A DNA stretch of 60,593 nt from Deltaproteobacteria bacterium (GTDB lineage Bacteria; Desulfobacterota; Desulfobacteria; Desulfobacterales; B30-G6): positions 1 through 60,593 of the forward strand of contig JAJDNW010000014.1 in assembly GCA_022340465.1 (NCBI GenBank), in the 5' to 3' direction. Position 1 is the first letter of the stretch; every line of letters begins with the position of its first letter. The position numbers and the translations under genes are program-made. Positions 2,787 through 52,951 of this stretch are shown here, piece by piece. Below the pieces are notes generated by a model. The model was not told the origin of the DNA, did no database searches, and saw nothing but the letters and a program-made list of their open reading frames with translations.

Positions 2787-4163
2787 TCACCAAATCGGTT
2801 TCTTTTTTATCCGGTCGTTTACTTTTTGGACATAAGCGTCGATGTCACATTTTCTTTCCAGCCCCGATGCTGCCATATAGCGTATCTTGCCGAAAATCGG
2901 ACGTTCTTTCCAGGCCCGGTCATGCACGCCGTAGATCCAGGCCACACCAGCATAGGAATTGGGATCGCGCCCATCCAAAAAATAGGTGTTGTTGAGGGCC
3001 AGGGTGGTCCGATAAGCGTGCTGCGGCGTTTGGGACCATTCCAGAATTTTTTTACCCCAGTACATGCGCATGTAGTTGTGCATGAAGCCGGTGTGCTTCA
3101 TTTCCAGCATGGCCGCATTCCAGTAAGGGTCATGGGTTTTGGCGGTTTCCAACTGGTGGCGGCTGTAGACATGCTCGCGCCTGTCGCCACGGTGGTCTGA
3201 CAGGGTCTTCTTGGCCCAGCCCGGAATGCAGGCGTATTTGTCGTAATCGGGCGTGTAGGAGACAAAGTTCATAGCCAGTTCGCGCCGCACCACGAGTTCC
3301 TCGATGTAAGCGTCTTTGACGGCTGGCGATGCCTTCGTGGTCTGCATGATTTTGAGCGCTACATAGAGGGGGGAAACCTGACCGAAATGTAGATAGGGAC
3401 TCATGAGGGAAAAGTCATCGGTCTGGGGCTGGTTGCTGTTATCTTCGTAACGTTGCAGACGATAGCGGATGAAATTCGCAAGACGCTTTTTAGCCTGGGA
3501 GGTGCCGCCGGCAATATATGCAGATACGGGGGAAACCCTGCGGTCAAGGTCAAGCTCTTCGAGCACTTCCTCAACGGAGCGAAATGTCAGGCCATCGACA
3601 GGCAGGTCCAGGGATGATTTTTTTACGGCCGTATTCTTCAGTCCTGTCAGGTAAGTATGGAGGAGCCGGTGAATCTTGGGACGAATCGTCCGGGCGGCAT
3701 ACTCCGCCCTGTTGGATGCGACTTCAACCGGCACGATCACGTCGCTTTCCACCTGATCAACCCGGCACGGAGCGTTTTCAGCGACCTGTTTGCGCCAGGC
3801 CCGCTGATATTTCAGGTACCCGCGGTCGCAGACGATCAGGCATGCTTTTGCGCCCAGTTCCAAAGCGACATCCGGGGGATGTCCGCGCCGCAGAACCATC
3901 TTGATGCCCCTGGCCTTCAAAGCAGTTTCAGTTTCCTGCAAGCCCTGCAGCATGAAGGTGTAGTGTCTCAGGTTGGCCTCCGGGTAGCTGTCGGTCAGAC
4001 CAAAGGCGACCAGCAACCCGCGGTTTAAGCGGTTGGCCTGCTGTATGGCATATTCCAGGGCGTGGTTGCATTCCGCCCGTTGGGACTGCTGCATCCAGTA
4101 GAGGATATAGTCGCCGTCCTTCACAGGACGGCTGTTGCGTTTTTTTAGGCGTCCTGGTTGCAT
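2787..4163 (-). CDS. phrB: Class II CPD photolyase
   Basis: 458 residues, the usual length of class II deoxyribodipyrimidine photolyases, which use FADH- and light to split cyclobutane pyrimidine dimers. The N-terminal Rossmann-like part contains GDYILYWMQQSQRAECNHAL, the class II antenna-domain start. The FAD-binding C-terminal half has the conserved run MKHTGFMHNYMRMYWGKKIL followed by NNTYFLDGRDPNSYAGVAW, typical of class II enzymes. It starts 3 bp after the stop of the DUF523/DUF1722 gene, and the same pairing (ybgA-phr) is known in E. coli. A photolyase in a presumed anaerobe suggests occasional exposure to light. Confidence 0.93.
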   Translation of the reverse strand: MQPGRLKKRNSRPVKDGDYILYWMQQSQRAECNHALEYAIQQANRLNRGLLVAFGLTDSYPEANLRHYTFMLQGLQETETALKARGIKMVLRRGHPPDVALELGAKACLIVCDRGYLKYQRAWRKQVAENAPCRVDQVESDVIVPVEVASNRAEYAARTIRPKIHRLLHTYLTGLKNTAVKKSSLDLPVDGLTFRSVEEVLEELDLDRRVSPVSAYIAGGTSQAKKRLANFIRYRLQRYEDNSNQPQTDDFSLMSPYLHFGQVSPLYVALKIMQTTKASPAVKDAYIEELVVRRELAMNFVSYTPDYDKYACIPGWAKKTLSDHRGDRREHVYSRHQLETAKTHDPYWNAAMLEMKHTGFMHNYMRMYWGKKILEWSQTPQHAYRTTLALNNTYFLDGRDPNSYAGVAWIYGVHDRAWKERPIFGKIRYMAASGLERKCDIDAYVQKVNDRIKKKPIW

Positions 4164-43703: not shown

Positions 43704-45827
43704 TCATTGCGCTGCGACGGGCGTCTTTGAGTCGGCGACGGGAAAGATGTGTTTGAACGACGTTCCTTTCCCCGGCACGCTTTCGATCTCGATTTCGCCA
43801 CCGTACTCTTTTACGATGCCGTAAATAATGGAAAGCCCCAACCCCATCCCTTTGCCTATCTCCTTGGTCGTAAAGAAGGGTTCGAAAATATTCTCCCTGT
43901 TTTCTTCCGGGATGCCGATGCCCGTGTCCGATACGGTTATGACGACATGCTCCCGATCATGGCGGGTGGAAATTTCAATCCTTTGGGGGGCGGCCTTATC
44001 GGAGGCTTCACGTTTTTTGAGAATCGCATCGCTGGCATTGGCCAACAAATTGAAGAAGACCTGTTCCATGCGGTTGCTTTGCGCCATTATGGTCGGAATC
44101 GACTCGTCGAGGTCGACGACAATGTCGATGTCGTGAAGTTTAAGCTGCTGGCCGATAATGCCGAGGACCGCTTCAATGACCGTATTGACGTTGACGTGCT
44201 CCTTTTTGTAACCGGGTTTGCGGCCGAATTCACGCAGCAGTTTGATGATTTCGGAGGCGCGATCGACCTGGTCGCTCACCTGTCTGGCAACTTCGATGAG
44301 CTGCGGCTGCAGGTTGCCGTGCTGCTTTTCAATCATCATTTGCATGTACTCGCTGCCCATTTTGATAACGTTCAAGGGCTGGTTGAGCTCATGGGCAACG
44401 CCCGCCGACATCTGGCCGAGGGTGGCCATCTTGTTTGCCTGAGCCAGTTGGGCATCCTTTTCGAGCAGCTCATTTATATCCGTCACGGCGACGATAACCG
44501 CCTGTGTCTGGTGGTAGCGGGTCGGGCATGCCGTCACCCGCACGTAGAACGGTTGCTTGTTTTTTCTGAAATGCTGCTCCTTCAAACTGACCACGCACGC
44601 GCTCAAGCTTTCTTCGAACCGGGCGATGCCCAGCTTCATTTTTTCATTGAAATGTTCCTCGCTGGCCATCCCGAGCTCTGAAAACGGTCGCCCGACAAGT
44701 TCTTCCTTGCTGTAGCCGTAAGTCTCTTCGGCGCTGGGGTTGGCGTCGAGAATGATGAAATGATCCTTGTCCAGTACGAAGATGGGATTGGGGCCGCTGT
44801 CGAACAGCGATCGGTAATTTTTTTCCGATTCGTGCAATGCCCTTTCAGCCAGCTTGCGTTCCGTGATGTCCAGAAAAGCACCGGTGATAAACTCGACTTC
44901 GCCGTCTTCGCCGTATATGATCTGGCCGCCCTCTTCCACCCAGACAACGTCGCCGTTTTTTGATTTAAACCGGTATTCCCTGATGTACATCTGGTCCGTT
45001 ATAAGCGCCTGTTTGAAAATATCCTTGGCGTATTCCAGGTCGTTTTCGTGGACGAGGTCGAACCAGTTCACCCTGCGCGAAGAAAAGTCCTCCCGGCTGT
45101 AGCCGGTGAGCGTTTCAATTTTGTCGTCGAAAAAATCGATGTCTCCATTCAGGTAGCCCTTGTAAACGACATTGGGCAGGTTGCGGACGAGGATGCGGTA
45201 TTTGCGCTCGCTCTCCATGAGCGCCTTTTCCGACCTTTTTTTTTCACTGACATCGAGGGCGATGCACAACAACCCTTCGACCGATCCGTAGGGGCCGCGC
45301 AACGCATTGGTGGACATTCTGACGGGGATGTGTTTGCCGCTTTTATGCACATAGGTCCATTCATAGTATCCGAGCGGATCTTCGGCCGCAAAAGCGAAAA
45401 ACAGATCAAGGTTTTCCAACGGCCGTTTCCGCCCCTTGCCAATCAACCGGCTGCGGATATCCATTTCCGACTTCAGATGAAGAAGCAAAAGGGTGTGATG
45501 CCCGATGACTTCGTCGGCCCGGTAACCCAGCATGTTTTCGGCACCCTTGTTAAAAACGGTGATGACCCCCTTTGGGTTCGTGGCGATGATGGATATTTGG
45601 GTGGCCGAGTCGAGCACCGTTTTGCGCTGGGCATTGGCAACCTGAAAACGTTGCAGAACGCTTTCCGTCTCTTCAAACTGCTTGACGACAAGGTCGGCGG
45701 TAATTTCGGCTGCTTTGCGGGCTTCACGAATCTCCCTGCGCAACAGCTCATTTTCCCTGGCCAGATCTTCGAAAGACCCTTCCGGCACGGCTGCGGGTTT
45801 TGTCGGTAAAACGGCGATGTTTCCCAT
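43704..45827 (-). CDS. Soluble histidine kinase with three PAS domains
   Basis: 707 residues and no membrane helix. A coiled coil (about 20-60) precedes PAS1 (about 65-190, [20 protein letters not shown]), PAS2 (about 205-330, [20 protein letters not shown]) and PAS3 (about 335-455, [20 protein letters not shown]). The HisKA box is [20 protein letters not shown], with His479. The ATPase has N box [11 protein letters not shown]1 [12 protein letters not shown] box [10 protein letters not shown] and G2 GMGLGLSI. It is the last gene of the hydrogenase-sensor operon, 4 bp after the large subunit, the position of HoxJ/HupT kinases in known H2 sensors, which also have PAS input. Its kinase core is closely related to that of the RND-kinase fusion in the same operon (15 of the first 20 residues from the His are identical). 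Confidence 0.93.
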
Positions 45828-45831
45828 GGCG

Positions 45832-47328
45832 TCACCTTAAGTCAATGGCGTGTACGGTGCAAACGAGGCACGGATCGAACGATCGCACGACATGATTGAC
45901 CTCCAGCGGATTCTGGGGGTTTTTGAGCCTTGTTCCGATCAGCGCCTCCTCCCAGGGGCCCCTGACGTCGTCAGTCCCGCGGGGTGAGGCATTCCAGGCG
46001 GTCGGGGTTATAATCTGGTAGGACAGGATTTTGTTGTCCTTGATCCTGACCCAATGCCCCAGCGCTCCCCGGGGCGCTTCGACCAGACCGTGCCCCTGCT
46101 GATTTTCGATGCCGCCATGGTCGCGGTAGTATTGTTCGGGCTTAGACCGGGCGGTGGCGATGCAATGCTGAACGGCGGGAATGACGAGTGCCGGCCTGAC
46201 CATTCTGGCCAACTGCCTGATGAACGTGCTCGGGCCGTCCGTGTGCAGGAAATCGATGAAAAGAGGATCGGCGGCAACGACCATTTCCGCCAGAGGTCCC
46301 GTTTCCGCCGGTTTCCCGTTATAGCGCGGGGCCTTGGCCCATGAATATTTGAGGTCTTCACTGCCGGTGGCATACGGCAATGTTTCCCCGTTATAAGGAT
46401 GCTTGCTTTTTCCGTTTTCGACAAACCATGAGTGGGAAAGGTCTTCGGTGATGTTTTCCTGATCCATAGGGAACAGGCGCTTGTCCGCATAAAATCCACC
46501 GCCGGTTAAAAACCTTTTTTCGCCCCCTTTTTGACCGCCGGCAATCGGGATGCCGAAGCTGATGAAGTTGCCGTGGCCTTTGCCGGTCCGGTGTAATCCG
46601 ATCTTTGTCGCAAACCGTATGAAAAGCCCCAGATCGCTTTTTAAGTGAGCGTCGCTTTCCTTGAGCCAGGCAAGCAAATCGGCTTTTGACTGCACGGCGC
46701 GCCACCTTTCCAGGCTGCACCCCAGTATCTGACGCTCGTACCAGCGTTTGAAATTGTTGAGGAGGTAGGAGCACCGGTTCAACTCGTTGATGTTCGGTAC
46801 GGACACGACACCGCCGGGGACCATAAACGAGGAGTGCGGCCACTGGCCTCCGAGGATGGCGATGATTCCCAGCACATCGCGGGTTTCGTTAATGGCCTGC
46901 CGTACGGAGGTCCCTTTGAGCGGTGTGTACCGTTTGACCACTTCGGCATGGAGCGGCTCCTGCCGATAGGCGGCATCGGTGAAGTCGGGCATAAACAGCA
47001 GAAAGGCATGGCGGATATCGTTTTGGAGCATTTCCGTCATCGCGGCAACGTTTCTTATATATGTGGCCTGACGCGGAACCGCTACATCGTAAATCTTGTC
47101 AAGCGCCCTGGCTGCCGCGTGAAGATGGGATGTGCTGCAGATGCCGCAGATGCGGGGCGTTATGACCAACCCGTCAAGGGGGGCGCGGCCTGTCATGATA
47201 TTTTCAAATCCACGGTACATGGTTCCGACGCTGCGCGCATCGGCCACGACGTTGTCCTCCAGGTCGACGGCGATTTCCAGATCGCCCTCGACCCGGTTTA
47301 CCGGGTAAATTTCAACTTTACGCGTCAT
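45832..47328 (-). CDS. hupV: [NiFe] hydrogenase large subunit, HupV/HoxC-like
   Basis: 498 residues. The N-terminal nickel motif is RICGICSTSH (C61, C64) and the C-terminal one DPCLVCTVH (C487, C490, H493), so all four Ni-Fe cysteines are present. The chain ends only five residues after the His (AIDLR). Regulatory HoxC/HupV subunits lack the long cleaved tail of catalytic enzymes; this short tail is intermediate. GGAG lies five bases before the start. It pairs with the small subunit just upstream and is followed by a PAS histidine kinase, which supports an H2-sensing role, although uptake activity cannot be excluded. No hyp maturation genes are in the window. Confidence 0.92.
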   Translation of the reverse strand: MTRKVEIYPVNRVEGDLEIAVDLEDNVVADARSVGTMYRGFENIMTGRAPLDGLVITPRICGICSTSHLHAAARALDKIYDVAVPRQATYIRNVAAMTEMLQNDIRHAFLLFMPDFTDAAYRQEPLHAEVVKRYTPLKGTSVRQAINETRDVLGIIAILGGQWPHSSFMVPGGVVSVPNINELNRCSYLLNNFKRWYERQILGCSLERWRAVQSKADLLAWLKESDAHLKSDLGLFIRFATKIGLHRTGKGHGNFISFGIPIAGGQKGGEKRFLTGGGFYADKRLFPMDQENITEDLSHSWFVENGKSKHPYNGETLPYATGSEDLKYSWAKAPRYNGKPAETGPLAEMVVAADPLFIDFLHTDGPSTFIRQLARMVRPALVIPAVQHCIATARSKPEQYYRDHGGIENQQGHGLVEAPRGALGHWVRIKDNKILSYQIITPTAWNASPRGTDDVRGPWEEALIGTRLKNPQNPLEVNHVVRSFDPCLVCTVHAIDLR

Positions 47329-47340
47329 CTATACTCCATC

Positions 47341-48279
47341 CTATATGCCGGTTTTTCTGGTTTTCAAACGTTGAGGGGCGGCCGCTGCGGCCATGCCCTT
47401 GTAGGCCATATAATGGGCGCGGTTGACGCCTTCCGGAAGCTCGATCGGAATTCCTTCGATATTGCGGGTTTCGAAAAAAGGATACGGCTGCGGAAAGTCC
47501 GGGCGTGTGCAGCCGAAACAGGGGACGCCGATCCGCGTCTTTGAAGAAAGCCGTTGCCAGAGCAGCTTGTTACACGGTCCGTGCGCCAGAGGACCGTGGC
47601 ACCCCAGGTGAAAAAACATGCACCCCTTTTCGCCGAAGCGTTTGTCTTCCACCCGGTATTCATGATATTCGTTGCGCGTACATCCCTGGTGGACCATGAT
47701 GTTGTACCACTCCGCGGGTGACTGGTGCTCCGTCAGGTTCAAGGTCGCATCGGAAGCCAGCATGGCAAGGGTGCCGCCGATGATGTCGTGGTGGCACGGG
47801 CATCCCGGCAGGTTGATTACGGGATGACCGCTTTTGGATTGAAACGCTTCACCCATAAAGCCGCCCTTTTCCCATTTTAAAAACTGCATTCCGGTCGCTT
47901 CGATTTCACTGTCGGTTCCGAAACCGCCGAAGCTGGCGCATGTTCCTACGGCAACGACGTACCGGGCCTGACGTGCCAGAGCGGCGACGAGGTCTTTTTT
48001 CGGCTTTCCATTGACCAGGTCATAGGACCCTGTTCCCCGGGGGCCGCGGATGATGGCGCCTTCGATACAGAGAAAATCGAGCCGCTGCCGCCCGGCCAAA
48101 AGGTCCGACACCAATTGCCGCTGATCCGCACGGCTTTTGACGGATATGGCGGGATGCCACAATACTTCTATGTCGAGGGAAGCCAACAGTTCGGAAAGGT
48201 TCGGTGATTCGATGTTGAACATCGACCATGTGTCTCCGCCGCATCCGCCGCACTGCAACCAGAAAAGCGTCTTTTGCAT
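47341..48279 (-). CDS. hupU: [NiFe] hydrogenase small subunit, HupU/HoxB-like, with Asp in the proximal-cluster motif
   Basis: 312 residues with no Tat signal: it starts MQKTLFWLQCGGCGGDTWSM directly, so it stays in the cytoplasm like HupU/HoxB. Cluster ligands: proximal C13, D16 (Cys in typical HupU), C114 (VGTCASFGG) and C160 (LPGCPC); distal H197, C200 (HQGCTRNEY), C220, C227; medial C236, C254, C257, with no fourth Cys. An extra Cys (C10) lies upstream of the usual pair. EGAIIRGPRGTGSYDLV, HQGCTRNEYHEY and IEGIPIELPEGVNRAHYM match HupU/HoxB segments. It sits 31 bp after the receiver gene and 12 bp before the large subunit. Confidence 0.92.
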   Translation of the reverse strand: MQKTLFWLQCGGCGGDTWSMFNIESPNLSELLASLDIEVLWHPAISVKSRADQRQLVSDLLAGRQRLDFLCIEGAIIRGPRGTGSYDLVNGKPKKDLVAALARQARYVVAVGTCASFGGFGTDSEIEATGMQFLKWEKGGFMGEAFQSKSGHPVINLPGCPCHHDIIGGTLAMLASDATLNLTEHQSPAEWYNIMVHQGCTRNEYHEYRVEDKRFGEKGCMFFHLGCHGPLAHGPCNKLLWQRLSSKTRIGVPCFGCTRPDFPQPYPFFETRNIEGIPIELPEGVNRAHYMAYKGMAAAAAPQRLKTRKTGI

Positions 48280-48310
48280 GCCTCTATACCCCCTGTCGAT
48301 ACATTAATAC

Positions 48311-48694
48311 CTATTTGTTCAAATCCCACTGAGAAAGGTTGTCCTCCGCCTTTGCAAGGGCCTTCTCCAGTTCCTCCCGCTCTATAGGCTTGTGCAAAAA
48401 CGCTGTGGCATTCAGCTCCATGGCCTGTTTCATCAAATCCTGATCGCCATGGCCGGTCATGACGATCACCTGCACGGAGGGATCGATGGACTTGAGCTTC
48501 TCGAGGGCCAATAGGCCGTCCATGCCCGGCATTTTAATATCGGTGAAGACAATCGGCGGCCGTTCCTTGTTAAACAGCGCGATTCCGTCCGCCGCATTCT
48601 CCGCTGTAAGGGCTTCGTAACCAAAGGCTTCGAGAAAAAGATTGAACATAAACAGGGTCGGTTGTTCATCGTCGATAACGAGCGCCTTACGCAT
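48311..48694 (-). CDS. Receiver-only response regulator
   Basis: 127 residues from the ATG at 48694 (GTG at 48706 is an alternative). A complete receiver: acidic pocket ALVIDDEQPTLFM, phosphoacceptor Asp52 in VFTDIKMPGMDG, Thr in VIVMTGHGD and Lys in AFLHKPI. No output domain. It lies between the RND-kinase gene and the hydrogenase genes, so it is the probable target of one or both kinases of the operon; output must pass through protein contact or a phosphorelay to a factor elsewhere. Confidence 0.93.
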   Translation of the reverse strand: MRKALVIDDEQPTLFMFNLFLEAFGYEALTAENAADGIALFNKERPPIVFTDIKMPGMDGLLALEKLKSIDPSVQVIVMTGHGDQDLMKQAMELNATAFLHKPIEREELEKALAKAEDNLSQWDLNK

Positions 48695-48746
48695 GAGCCA
48701 TTTCACCTTTCATGAGTTCAGGGAGGTGTTCACCCCACGCCGGGAG

Positions 48747-51743
48747 TCACTGCCGAACCGGTGCTGCATGGGCAGGAAAAAACAGGATAAATTCAGTTCG
48801 CCGGCCCGGTTCACTTTTTATTTCGAAACGACCGTTGTAGCTTTTCACGATTTCTCTGCAGACAGTGAGGCCGAGCCCCTTGCCGCTTCCCGTGGCCTTT
48901 GTCGTGAAGAAAGGCTCCGTTATTCTATGGACCAGATGGGCGGGGATGCCGATGCCGTTGTCGGCCAACCGCACGTTGACGTAATTCCTACGGGCCGCTG
49001 TCCGGATCGTTATTCGCGATTCGCTGTGCATTTCCCCGGCGGCGGATTTCTTCACGGCTATGGCCTCACAGGCATTGACCAGGAGATTGAAAACGACTTC
49101 ACTGATTTTTTTAGGATGAGCGTAAATATAGGGTATGGTGTCATCCAAATCAAGCTGAATATCGATGCCTTCGATCTTCAGCCGGTTTTCGACCAGCACG
49201 ATGGCCTCGAGAATGGCCTTGTTGACGTCGGTGGGCTCCCTGCTGAAGCCGGGCTGGCTGCCGAAAGCCGTCAACCGGCGAATCAACTCGGATGCCCGGT
49301 CCACCTGCGTTCCTATCTCGTTCGACACGCGGGAGATCCGACCCGCTTCGACGGAGGTTGCTTGCTGGGAGACCATTTTCAGGTAGTCGCTGCCCATTTT
49401 GATCGCATTCAGGGGCTGGTTCAACTCATGCGCGGCCGAGCCCGAAATGCCGCTCAATGTCGGCATCAGCTTCAGCAGATCCCAGGCGGTAACAAGCTCG
49501 ACCTTGAGCATCAAGGCTGGCAGGATCACCAGGTCTCCCGCCAGCGCCGCCAGCATGGTGATGAGCATTAAAAGACCGAATTCCGACGTGGGCTTGAAAC
49601 TGGAAAAAAGCAGAACCGCAAACCCCAGGCCGATGATCATGGTCGTGCAGAGAACCGGCCGTCCGACATGCATCACGGCGTCTTTAAGGGCGCGGTCCTT
49701 ATCCAGATCCTTTTTGAATTCCCGGTTGTACCGGTACAGATAGTGAATGGTGTCGTCAACGGCGAGCCCGATGGCGATACTTGCAATCAGGCTGGTTACC
49801 ATGGACAGGTGGATCCCGAACCAACCCATAATGCCGAAAGTCATGACGATCGGAAAAGCGTTCGGCAGAATGGCGATAAATCCGACCTTGGTGGACAGGA
49901 AAAGAATCAGCATGATCACGAAAATAAAAACCATGGTCAAGGCGAAACTCTTGGCCTGGCCCCACGTCAGGAGATGGCTGCTGGCCGCGGCCACCATGCC
50001 GAACCCGGTCACTTCCCAATCGGGGATATCGGGAAATTCCATTTTGACGTGGTCCAGAATGGTGTCTCTGAGGGCTAAGAAATCCCGTGAACTGGAAATG
50101 TGGGTCAGCAGCATGACGTTGGCCTTGGAAAAGGCGGGGTTCATAAACCGGGTCAGCATGTCGTCGCCCAGCATGGTCTTGTAGCTGTTGATCAGCATGC
50201 GGACCTCGAAGCCTTCGGCGGGCAATGTATAATAATCCGGCTTGTACTGATTCATGGCGTAGTTCACCAGCTGCATATAATCCGCGAAAGACACGGTCTT
50301 GTCGATCCCCGGCAGGGTTTCCAGATAATGCTGGAGCTTCTCGATGCGGGCGATGTTGAGCGGGTTTTCAAAAAAATCATCCTCCCCGCCGTCCATGACG
50401 ACATTGACGGGAAAGCTTCCCGAAAGGTCTTTGTAAATATCGTGAAAGTGCCGGCTGATTGACGTGCGGGGTTTGAAAAAACCCATGGGGTTGGTTTCGA
50501 CATGTATGAAAAAGATGCCGGCGATGCCCAGCACCACCAGCCCGCAGATGGAAAGCAGGACGGGTGTGCGCTTTTCCAGATTGACCTTCACGATCAATTC
50601 GAGGAGTTTTTCGAAGCCGCCGCCGTTTTTCCGGCCCCCCCCCTGCCGCTTGGGCGGGGGAACCAGGAGAAGGGCCGCCGGAAAAGCGGTTAGCAGGATG
50701 ACCAGAAGGCTGAGCATGCCGAAACAGGAAAGCAGTGCGAATTCGTGAATGGCCTGCATGCGGTTGACCAGCAGGGAGGTCAGGCCGATAACCGTTGTCA
50801 GGACCGTCAGGATGGTCGGCAGCAAAACGGCGCCATAGGCTTCTATTACCGCATGGTAGCGCGAGCCGGTATGCCGGCAGCAGGTAAAATAGGTGGCGAT
50901 GATGTGCATGCAGTACGCCGTTCCCACGGCGATCAGGAAAACAGGCACAACCATGGTCATCATAGACAGGGGGACCCGTAACCAACCCATCAGCCCGATC
51001 GTCCATACCAGAGCCGACATCACCGTTCCCAGCACCACGACGGTCACCGCGATATTGCGAAAGAGGATCCACAGGAGGCCGGCGACCAGCAAGAGGGTGA
51101 TGAGCGGCAGGCGTTTGAAATCTTTCTCGGTGTAGCGGGCCATCGCCTGAGATACCAGCGGCATGCCGATCTGGTAGCTGGTAACGGGCTCGGGGACGTC
51201 GTCGATGAGGGCCTGGATATCGTGTATGACCTGCTCCTTGTCCGCATCGATGTTCAGGACGACGGTTAGAACCGTCGTTTTCAGATCTTCCGAGAGGAGA
51301 TTCTTTTTAAACAGGTCGACGGGTTGAATGATCGCTCTGAACCTCTTCAGTTCCCACTTCCGCGACATTTCGACGGCTTTTTTAATCTCGGGCAGGCTGA
51401 TAACCCGCTTTATTCCCGGGAGCTTCTGGAGAGCGGCGGACATTTTTTCCACGAGACCGAAATTCTGCCGCTTGAAAATTCCATCCGTGCGTACAACGAC
51501 CCGTATAATTTCATCGGAACCGAATATCGCTTTGAAGGTGTTGTAACTGGCGGTTTCGGGCGAACGGTCCACCACCATATCGTAGACGGACGTTCGAAAT
51601 GCAATGCCGGGGATGCGCCATCCGAAGCCGACCGTGATCGCCGCGAAGATCAGAATGACCGCAAGCGGCCTTTTCAGAATGCCCTGCAAGAATTCCGCAA
51701 AGAGCCTCCGGTCCAAGTTGGCATGAATGGGTTCTTGTTCCAT
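48747..51743 (-). CDS. RND-superfamily transporter fused to a histidine kinase
   Basis: 998 residues from the ATG at 51743, one base after the Sir2 stop (TAGAATG). Residues about 1-740 are a two-repeat RND/MMPL protein: TM1 (LAVILIFAAITVGFGW), a large extracytoplasmic loop, a helix bundle including LPLITLLLVAGLLWILF and VVPVFLIAVGTAYCMHIIAT, a second loop, and a second bundle ending with the RND signature IAIGLAVDDTIHYLYRYNRE. About 30 residues after the last helix comes [20 protein letters not shown] (HisKA, His772), then N box NLLVNACEAI, G1 ADNGIGIPAH, F box TEPFFTTKAT and G2 GKGLGLTV. The frame is uninterrupted. It resembles HAE3-type predicted exporters joined to a complete cytoplasmic kinase. 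The kinase core is a paralogue of that in the PAS kinase of the same operon. Confidence 0.93.
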   Translation of the reverse strand: MEQEPIHANLDRRLFAEFLQGILKRPLAVILIFAAITVGFGWRIPGIAFRTSVYDMVVDRSPETASYNTFKAIFGSDEIIRVVVRTDGIFKRQNFGLVEKMSAALQKLPGIKRVISLPEIKKAVEMSRKWELKRFRAIIQPVDLFKKNLLSEDLKTTVLTVVLNIDADKEQVIHDIQALIDDVPEPVTSYQIGMPLVSQAMARYTEKDFKRLPLITLLLVAGLLWILFRNIAVTVVVLGTVMSALVWTIGLMGWLRVPLSMMTMVVPVFLIAVGTAYCMHIIATYFTCCRHTGSRYHAVIEAYGAVLLPTILTVLTTVIGLTSLLVNRMQAIHEFALLSCFGMLSLLVILLTAFPAALLLVPPPKRQGGGRKNGGGFEKLLELIVKVNLEKRTPVLLSICGLVVLGIAGIFFIHVETNPMGFFKPRTSISRHFHDIYKDLSGSFPVNVVMDGGEDDFFENPLNIARIEKLQHYLETLPGIDKTVSFADYMQLVNYAMNQYKPDYYTLPAEGFEVRMLINSYKTMLGDDMLTRFMNPAFSKANVMLLTHISSSRDFLALRDTILDHVKMEFPDIPDWEVTGFGMVAAASSHLLTWGQAKSFALTMVFIFVIMLILFLSTKVGFIAILPNAFPIVMTFGIMGWFGIHLSMVTSLIASIAIGLAVDDTIHYLYRYNREFKKDLDKDRALKDAVMHVGRPVLCTTMIIGLGFAVLLFSSFKPTSEFGLLMLITMLAALAGDLVILPALMLKVELVTAWDLLKLMPTLSGISGSAAHELNQPLNAIKMGSDYLKMVSQQATSVEAGRISRVSNEIGTQVDRASELIRRLTAFGSQPGFSREPTDVNKAILEAIVLVENRLKIEGIDIQLDLDDTIPYIYAHPKKISEVVFNLLVNACEAIAVKKSAAGEMHSESRITIRTAARRNYVNVRLADNGIGIPAHLVHRITEPFFTTKATGSGKGLGLTVCREIVKSYNGRFEIKSEPGRRTEFILFFPAHAAPVRQ

Positions 51744-51744
51744 T

Positions 51745-52524
51745 CTATCGGGGTTTCTTCCTGACACCGGCGATGATTTTCGGCATGATTTCTCCGGCAC
51801 TGCCCTCGATGCGGATGTCCGCCAGGTGGTCCAATTCAGTGGGCCCCAGGTTGACGATCACCAGTTTGGCTCCGCTTTCGCGGGCAAACCTGGGAATGAG
51901 TGCGGCAGGGTAAACGGACAGGGTCGATCCCAGAACGACACAGAGGTCGCATTCTCTGGAACGGCGCTCCGCTTCCGACAGCACGCCAATGGGCAGCTGC
52001 TCGCCGAACAGGACCGCATCCGGCTTGAGCATGCCGTTGCATTTTTCGCACACCGGTTCTTCGATGCCGCTTTCCATCCATCCTGCCACGGTCTGCATGG
52101 GATAACGGCTGTGACACTTCAGGCACTTGGCGTGACTCAGGTCGCCGTGCAGCTGGAAAACCATTTCATCCGACGTGCCGGCCTTCTGATGCAGGCCGTC
52201 GACGTTCTGGGTGACGACACCGCAGAGCTTGCCGCTTCTTTCGAGGTCCGTTATGGCCAGGTGGGCGCGATTCGGTTCGGCTTTGAACATGGACAGTTCG
52301 CCATCCGCCAGCAGGGACCAGTGCAGCCTGCGGGCCCTTTTGTCCTCGAGGAATTTTTGGATCGTAAAGTCCTCGGGATCGAACTTGGTCCAAATGCCGT
52401 CGGGCCCCCGGAAATCGGGTATGCCCGACTCCGTGCTGACGCCCGCCCCTGTGAAAACCAACACCTTGTTCGACCGGCGGATCAATTGCGCCGCTTCCTC
52501 TATCTGTGCGTTAATTTCATCCAT
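51745..52524 (-). CDS. cobB: Sir2-family NAD-dependent protein deacylase
   Basis: 259 residues; AGGAG lies eight bases before the ATG at 52524. Motifs: FTGAGVSTESGIPDFRGPDG, VTQNVDGLHQKAG, catalytic His in FQLHGDLSH, and a four-Cys zinc site (CLKCHSRYP ... CEKCNGML). FGEQLP and VVLGSTLSVYPAALIP complete the NAD pocket. It removes acyl groups from lysines, making nicotinamide and O-acyl-ADP-ribose. It is separated from the RND-kinase gene by one base, so it is part of that operon; acyl control of the signalling proteins is a possibility but not shown. Confidence 0.94.
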   Translation of the reverse strand: MDEINAQIEEAAQLIRRSNKVLVFTGAGVSTESGIPDFRGPDGIWTKFDPEDFTIQKFLEDKRARRLHWSLLADGELSMFKAEPNRAHLAITDLERSGKLCGVVTQNVDGLHQKAGTSDEMVFQLHGDLSHAKCLKCHSRYPMQTVAGWMESGIEEPVCEKCNGMLKPDAVLFGEQLPIGVLSEAERRSRECDLCVVLGSTLSVYPAALIPRFARESGAKLVIVNLGPTELDHLADIRIEGSAGEIMPKIIAGVRKKPR

Positions 52525-52619
52525 GCGCAGGGCTCCTTTCGCAGCTATTCTGTCGACCACAGAGGCACAAAGCCCACAAAGAAATCGAGGTGCTTTTCTA
52601 GCGGCAAGGCCGCATATCC

Positions 52620-52638
52620 AATATCGCGAAGCGATATT
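52620..52638 (-). other. Short hairpin at the end of the FmdB-like gene
   Basis: AATATCGC-TTC-GCGATATT on the minus strand, overlapping the stop codon. There is no U-run, so it may only protect or partly separate the transcript from the Sir2 gene 95 bp downstream. Confidence 0.4.
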
Positions 52639-52951
52639 AGTCTTTGATCGTTTTGGAGAGGTCCGGCATGGTTTCGGGCTTGTCCCGGTGCATGTAGCGG
52701 CTCTCGCCGTCACGTGCGGTGACGTTTTCATACACCCCGTCGTCCCTCTTCACCAGTTTGGTGAACCCCAGGTCCCGTAGCTCACCGTTCGTTTTGGGGG
52801 CGCTGATGCCCACCAGGGATATCAGCTTTCTGACCGGTCCGCCGCAAACCGGGCACGCTTTCAAAGGCTTTTCCTCCAGAGACTGGGTGGCTTCGAACAC
52901 GCTTCCCAGGCTGCAGGGTTTTTCAAGATGTTCATATTCGTAAACAGGCAT
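52637..52951 (-). CDS. FmdB-like zinc-ribbon protein with incomplete ribbon
   Basis: 104 residues starting MPVYEYEHLEKPCSLGSVFE. FmdB proteins usually read MPIYEYxCxxCG followed later by CPxCGG; here the second pair is intact (ACPVCGGPVRKLISL) but the first CxxC is reduced to a single Cys. The C-terminal half (SRYMHRDKPETMPDLSKTIK) is charged. FmdB was named as a regulator near formamidase genes but its role is unclear. It is upstream of Sir2 on the same strand and may be the first gene of the operon. Confidence 0.75.
   Translation of the reverse strand: MPVYEYEHLEKPCSLGSVFEATQSLEEKPLKACPVCGGPVRKLISLVGISAPKTNGELRDLGFTKLVKRDDGVYENVTARDGESRYMHRDKPETMPDLSKTIKD

Follow-up and report, generated by a model that had tools for sequence, protein, structure and literature searches.

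The 60,593-nucleotide stretch of DNA analysed here (the window), from a Deltaproteobacteria bacterium, encodes a [NiFe] hydrogenase and a receiver-only response regulator set between the genes of two histidine kinases. What does a hydrogenase do in such company, and why would two kinases share a neighborhood with a receiver that carries no output domain? The original prediction held that the locus is an H2-sensing system with a HupU/HupV-like hydrogenase, in which two duplicated kinases meet at one receiver. Here, we consider the parts of the locus, their conservation, the class of the hydrogenase, and the means by which it could be connected to a kinase.

Results

The five genes are intact, lie on the minus strand, and follow the predicted order. 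The RND-type histidine kinase (RND-HK; 48747..51743) has 998 residues from ATG 51743, with an alternative open GTG at 51800, and consists of a membrane half of MmpL/NPC1 fold that leads into HisKA/HATPase, with the phospho-His codon at 49428-49430. Pfam recovers MMPL and HATPase_c in this protein; HisKA is below the cut-off, yet the His, N, and G boxes are intact in the alignment. The response regulator (48311..48706; 131 residues from GTG, 127 from ATG 48694) has its phospho-Asp in TDIKMPG and comprises Response_reg only, as expected from the first description, and all 15 orthologous loci likewise encode a receiver alone. The hydrogenase small subunit (47341..48279) is of the cytosolic type, with no Tat signal and with the proximal-cluster motif CGGD. 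The large subunit (45832..47328), from a clade that is most likely 2c-type (see below), has both CxxC motifs intact and a degenerate tail, AIDLR. Last in the series is a cytosolic PAS histidine kinase (43704..45827; 707 residues; phospho-His codon 44391-44393), built of an N-terminal helix, three PAS domains, and HisKA/HATPase. The intergenic gaps are 40 bp (receiver GTG) or 52 bp (ATG 48694), 31, 12, and 4 bp; the earlier values of 52, 31, and 12 bp are therefore correct for the ATG start, and the last, given as 3 bp, is 4 bp. A promoter and terminator scan of the locus gave nothing usable. A Sir2-type deacylase gene (51745-52731, minus strand) runs in the same direction and ends 1 nt before the ATG of RND-HK; it was rejected as a member of the system, being absent from all 16 related loci searched.

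Co-occurrence of the five genes in related genomes had been proposed as a check, and the clusters are indeed conserved. The main sample comprised 291 genomes of the class, 34 of which carry large-subunit relatives, mostly at 50-59% identity (a 35th match, in G255, was left out as a group 1 enzyme). All five genes are found together in nine loci (the window, L070, L050, L034, L053, L056, L066, L068, and L069). Two further loci are broken by contig ends (L051 and that of G056, which is split over two contig ends, L149 and L033), and L058 is rearranged: an RND-HK/kinase/receiver set adjoins the hydrogenase and its PAS kinase and runs divergently from them. The receiver lies 5' of the small subunit in three loci and 3' of the PAS kinase in the others. 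Full-length RND-HK occurs in 14 of the 291 genomes, and 12 of these 14 also carry the hydrogenase (Fisher p = 7e-11, a rough indication given that the genomes are related). Among the carriers is a cultured organism, Desulfatibacillum alkenivorans DSM 16219 (L078). The five genes are not an indivisible unit: in L146-L148 and L058, both kinases and the receiver are present, and no sensory hydrogenase lies among them. The presence of the two-kinase/receiver module without a sensory hydrogenase in L146-L148 suggests a more general module of hydrogenase operons into which H2 sensing has been plugged.

In a maximum-likelihood tree of 72 large subunits, the window sequence falls in a 43-member clade (99/93). 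Its neighbor is an Ideonella dechloratans hydrogenase (100/98) whose locus also encodes a diguanylate cyclase/phosphodiesterase, and group 2a comes next; the seven group 2b sequences make up a separate clade (100/100), and this lies outside the one that holds the window enzyme and 2a. Membership in group 2b (HoxBC/HupUV) was rejected because of this separate placement and because the three 2b-specific residues checked are absent. The window large subunit has His68 where 2b enzymes have Gln after CGIC, and Leu111 where they have Phe in the gas channel (HoxC F110); both Gln and Phe are present in seven of seven 2b sequences. The proximal motif is CGGD, and it is CGGC in all three 2b sequences compared. 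Thus, the label HupU/HupV-like does not hold, and the enzyme belongs to a clade beside a 2c-type hydrogenase. Asp16 and Ile63 are common to the window enzyme and group 2 in general. The enzyme retains every [NiFe] ligand, and it shares with 2a a Leu at the second gas-channel position. The fourth proximal Cys is replaced by Asp in all aligned clade members and in the Ideonella enzyme; it is Asn in 2a and Cys in 2b and group 1. Judged from this motif, the window small subunit likely houses an unusual proximal cluster.

The ends of the subunits are also informative. The small subunit begins directly at the cluster domain, and the group 1 Tat-type leader is absent. Its C-terminal tail (47344..47469, minus strand; residues 271-312) is the most conserved part of the protein in the clade (mean pairwise identity 81% versus 65% in the core) and may contact the kinase. 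Large-subunit tails after the last ligand range in the clade from 0 to about 30 residues and are not conserved, the window enzyme having five extra residues; elsewhere, 2a keeps a conserved peptide, and 2b stops exactly at the ligand in TVH. No maturation protease or electron-acceptor gene conserved beside the clade hydrogenase was found in the loci compared. Grouping with catalytic uptake enzymes that show no sensor features, which would have spoken against the original prediction, was not what we observed: the enzyme has no signal peptide and no conserved cleavable C-terminal peptide, and kinases adjoin it clade-wide.

At least 15 sister loci (six Pfam-checked) encode a hybrid kinase and a REC-GGDEF regulator after the hydrogenase; no diguanylate cyclase was found beside the window genes. 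HydDB names group 2c "diguanylate cyclase-linked (putative)" and regards it as a putative sensor that may sense H2 (PMC5037454). Because the clade lies beside a diguanylate-cyclase-linked hydrogenase and its sister loci with REC-GGDEF fit the HydDB 2c description, the window hydrogenase most likely belongs to this putative sensory group, an assignment made from our own tree and linkage. The window enzyme and the HydDB 2c/Ideonella type share a large-subunit clade, the CGGD motif, and a cytosolic character, and most other clade members have the REC-GGDEF linkage, whereas the window locus is without a diguanylate cyclase and has two sister kinases and a bare receiver. In the window, the second kinase and bare receiver stand in for the hybrid kinase/REC-GGDEF output of the sister loci. 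Further differences of the Ideonella locus (L103) are its maturation protease gene, its output of fused GGDEF/EAL type, and the absence of the candidate docking motif described below.

These sister loci are the proper comparison for the window, rather than the HoxJ-HoxA and HupT-HupR systems against which it was originally set. There are likenesses to HoxBC-HoxJ-HoxA and HupUV-HupT-HupR: a cytosolic group 2 hydrogenase adjoins a soluble PAS-type kinase, no conserved cleaved C-terminal peptide is apparent, and the predicted logic runs from H2 to kinase. However, the window enzyme is in a separate clade without the 2b Gln, Phe, and fourth proximal Cys, its kinase core is unrelated to HoxJ/HupT, and the locus has no NtrC-type DNA-binding regulator such as HoxA/HupR (only the 131-residue receiver) and has a second, membrane-bound kinase. 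Group 2a (Huc; 7uus/7utd) is the next nearest clade and likewise shows no signal peptide, a gas-channel Ile, and a non-Cys proximal position, but 2a enzymes have a conserved C-terminal peptide, nearby maturation protease genes, and no linked kinase.

Counting from the phospho-His, 15 of the first 20 residues are the same in the two kinase cores, in exact agreement with the first description. Eighteen other kinases of the genome match either window kinase at 3-9 of the 20 positions, and the next closest, on contig C92, matches at 11. In a kinase-core tree, the RND-HK cores (16 rows, 100/99) and the partner cores (16 rows, 90/76) are sister clades (100/96), which indicates that the kinase duplication is old and that both products were retained together. 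The nearest outside relative in this tree is the further same-genome kinase on C92, and HoxJ and HupT are distant. This C92 kinase (L164:5640-9203, plus strand) is a HAMP-PAS kinase, and the gene after it encodes a REC-HATPase protein. Identity in the receiver-facing helix is 65% between the families versus 67-69% within them, and in other parts of the kinase core it is 39-41% between families; the HisKA/HATPase catalytic boxes are kept in both window kinases. A receiver-facing helix that stays alike while the remainder diverges is the pattern expected if both kinases address the same receiver. The proposal of duplication and a shared target is thus strengthened by the sister clades and the selectively conserved helix, with sequence and gene order supporting one receiver for both kinases. 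Elsewhere, a truncated RND-HK (L048:7295-8854, minus strand) has lost its phospho-His (VADELNGPL) and adjoins a group 1 hydrogenase; the sensory hydrogenase of that genome uses a hybrid kinase, an apparent case of decay of the RND-HK module.

How could the hydrogenase be connected to the PAS kinase? A segment of about 45 residues (45630..45764, minus strand; residues 22-66), defined by a motif profile and predicted with low confidence to be helical, precedes the first PAS domain. Within the 291 genomes of the class, the profile is found in 34 of 34 hydrogenase genomes and is strong in 3 of the 257 without, and two genomes with two such hydrogenases have two copies each. The three exceptions (G166, G167, and G203) are hybrid kinases in genomes with no such hydrogenase, followed in two cases by REC-GGDEF. 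The helix is also borne by PAS- and GAF-hybrid kinases that adjoin this hydrogenase and whose cores are unrelated; the labels of their contigs include Chloroflexota and Planctomycetota, among others. It is absent from the RND-HKs, HoxJ, and HupT and from three cores orthologous to the PAS kinase that do not adjoin a hydrogenase (L147, L148, and L058b), and it is decayed in L146, a locus without a sensory hydrogenase. In a second sample, of 395 genomes from the phylum, 11 genomes have the helix and 11 have a hydrogenase of >50% identity, and the two sets coincide; 8 of the 11 are outside the class, and two genomes with only 38-40% hydrogenase relatives lack the helix. Since the segment tracks the hydrogenase, is common to unrelated cores, and is missing from orthologous kinases away from the hydrogenase, residues 22-66 are a strong candidate for a hydrogenase-docking segment. 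The simplest reading is that the helix would couple the hydrogenase to whichever kinase is in use, although it could be retained for a reason other than hydrogenase binding.

The surroundings of the module bear on both its input and its target. At L147 and L148, a periplasmic binding protein gene sits between RND-HK and the partner kinase, in the hydrogenase's place; the L147 partner kinase has an sCache domain (Pfam), and the L148 kinase resembles it in length and tree position. In loci with the hydrogenase, this slot is occupied by the sensory hydrogenase, with a cytosolic PAS kinase bearing the candidate docking helix. The input gene and the kinase input region are therefore swapped together while the cores and receiver stay constant, which supports the hydrogenase as the input of the PAS kinase. 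The RND-HK/partner kinase/receiver module is usually within group 1 hydrogenase/hyp operons, and RND-family proteins with a kinase or a cNMP plus GGDEF output are encoded in group 1 [NiFe] hydrogenase operons alongside hycI, hypF, hypD, hypE, apbE, and often etf. The receiver overlaps hypF at L034 and is 5' of hypD, hypE, and apbE at L053. No group 1 hydrogenase or hyp genes were found inside the window; the group 1 operon of this genome is on contig C126, away from the window hydrogenase, and for that reason our proposal for the regulatory target is drawn from relatives.

Several other features of these operons were observed. Proteins that combine RND with C-terminal cNMP-binding and GGDEF domains (L155, L048, L150-L154, and L156-L163) are in many cases encoded in group 1 hydrogenase/hyp/apbE/etf operons. 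The one in the window's own genome begins at the end of C126 and continues on C57 (L155, 2-3115); it was rejected as a functional diguanylate cyclase, the GGDEF motif being degenerate in both such proteins examined (L155 and L150). At L058:12669-14515 (minus strand), the receiver gene overlaps a diadenylate cyclase gene (DACND-DACNH-DAC) by 4 nt, and a c-di-AMP output is possible in that genome. The group 1 large subunit of the window's own genome (L049, on C126, gene ending at 3155) has an in-frame TGA exactly where the first metal motif would have its second Cys (RSCGV-TGA-T), as do L050, L053, L147, L150, L153, L154, L156, and L162. A conserved hairpin with a GGT loop, CTGTCCTC-GGT-GAGGGCAG, follows about 15 nt past the TGA; the Cys-encoding relatives L148 and L152 do not have it, and selB is present in the genome. 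These group 1 large subunits probably contain selenocysteine in the N-terminal motif. In [NiFeSe] enzymes, selenocysteine is usually in the C-terminal motif.

AlphaFold models of both kinases are of low confidence (RND-HK pLDDT 65), and only the overall RND fold was used. By fold, the RND-HK model matches MmpL4/5, MmpL3, HpnN, NPC1, and Patched, a modeled likeness confined to the membrane half; RND-HK differs from these proteins in its fusion to a histidine kinase and in lacking the TM4 acidic residue, and the RND paralogues differ in their fusion to cNMP and a degenerate GGDEF domain. Family members keep a nearly invariant acidic pair in TM10, none of them has the acidic residue of TM4, and the last membrane helix of the RND half continues directly into the kinase helix. 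We favor a role for the RND half as a sensor of a membrane or hydrophobic signal. No description of a kinase with an RND (MmpL/NPC1-fold) half linked to a hydrogenase was found in the searchable literature.

Discussion

Taken as a whole, a two-input signalling device around a predicted (2c-type) H2-sensing hydrogenase is the explanation that we consider reasonably probable. A cytoplasmic hydrogenase probably senses H2 and would be plugged into one of two sister kinases that would share one receiver. The hydrogenase would bind the N-terminal helix of the PAS kinase, and reaction of H2 at the [NiFe] site would alter the activity of that kinase. RND-HK, with its lipid-type RND fold, would add a second input from the membrane or periplasm, and both kinases would phosphorylate or dephosphorylate the same receiver. 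Having no effector domain, the receiver could act on another protein in a CheY- or Spo0F-like manner, and its most likely role would be to control the group 1 [NiFe] hydrogenase and the maturation genes of its usual host operon, at the level of expression or activity. The REC-GGDEF regulators of the sister loci mean that the output may instead be c-di-GMP. Counted against the device as a whole is the absence from the window enzyme of the gas-channel and Gln residues of 2b, the tested H2 sensor.

Other explanations deserve weight, beginning with the hydrogenase itself. It could be a catalytic enzyme of the 2a/Huc-like kind, taking up H2 and passing electrons to metabolism, with the neighboring kinases regulating it rather than being driven by it. 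Group 2a is the nearest characterized group in the tree, Huc (7uus, 7utd) is the best solved match, and the intact [NiFe] ligands and the Leu at the second gas-channel position are as an uptake enzyme of this kind would have them. We judge this very improbable, however: no maturation protease or electron-acceptor gene is conserved alongside, the large-subunit tail is degenerate, unlike that of 2a, and the hydrogenase always adjoins a kinase bearing one particular helix, including cases in which the kinase core is unrelated. That the receiver is a phosphorelay intermediate or phosphate sink for c-di-GMP signalling, and not a regulator of hydrogenase genes, is possible if somewhat unlikely; the many sister loci with hybrid kinase and REC-GGDEF, the GGDEF domains of the RND paralogues, and the overlap with a diadenylate cyclase gene at L058 speak for it, whereas no diguanylate cyclase is conserved beside the two-kinase loci, the GGDEF motif of the own-genome paralogue is degenerate, and the receiver keeps company with hypF (L034) and with hypD, hypE, and apbE (L053).

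The two kinases could also be a heterodimer or an antagonistic pair, one controlling the other, instead of independent inputs. Their sister cores stay together in nearly every locus, and first-helix identity is slightly higher in same-genome pairs (69%) than in cross-genome pairs (65%; n = 14). Yet conservation is strongest in the receiver-facing helix after the His, the loop and second helix are 39% identical between families, and both kinases retain their catalytic boxes, all of which leaves such pairing quite doubtful. As for the RND half, a working transporter (of lipid, for example) whose kinase tail reports on or regulates transport would suit the fold near MmpL3-5, HpnN, and NPC1, the nearly invariant TM10 acidic pair, and the relatives that adjoin etf and polyprenyl/CDP-alcohol lipid genes. 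However, no member has the TM4 acidic residue, and the RND half is paired with different signalling outputs (kinase or cNMP-GGDEF), as an input module would be, so we regard a transporter as unlikely and prefer a dedicated sensor.

Beyond the window, the loci may represent a plug-in module of anaerobic H2 metabolism with a constant core, an exchangeable sister-kinase input, and a reused helix. The core would be the lipid-RND-fold kinase, its sister kinase, and the bare receiver, situated in hydrogenase operons. The input would be either a hydrogenase docked by a dedicated 45-residue helix or a periplasmic binding protein with sCache, and the same helical segment would link the hydrogenase to unrelated kinases in several phyla. 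For these propositions taken jointly, we see the chances as evenly balanced.

Judged by its sequence and its relatives, the locus is a conserved two-kinase, receiver-only variant of a predicted H2-sensor class, with a specific candidate docking element. The helix provides a deletable handle for testing whether and how a 2c-type hydrogenase drives a kinase, and it offers a way of finding such loci by genome search that does not depend on the hydrogenase. The existence of a two-kinase variant suggests that, in sulfate reducers and related organisms, one receiver combines H2 status with another signal, probably from the membrane, and this merging of two signals would occur inside hydrogenase operons.
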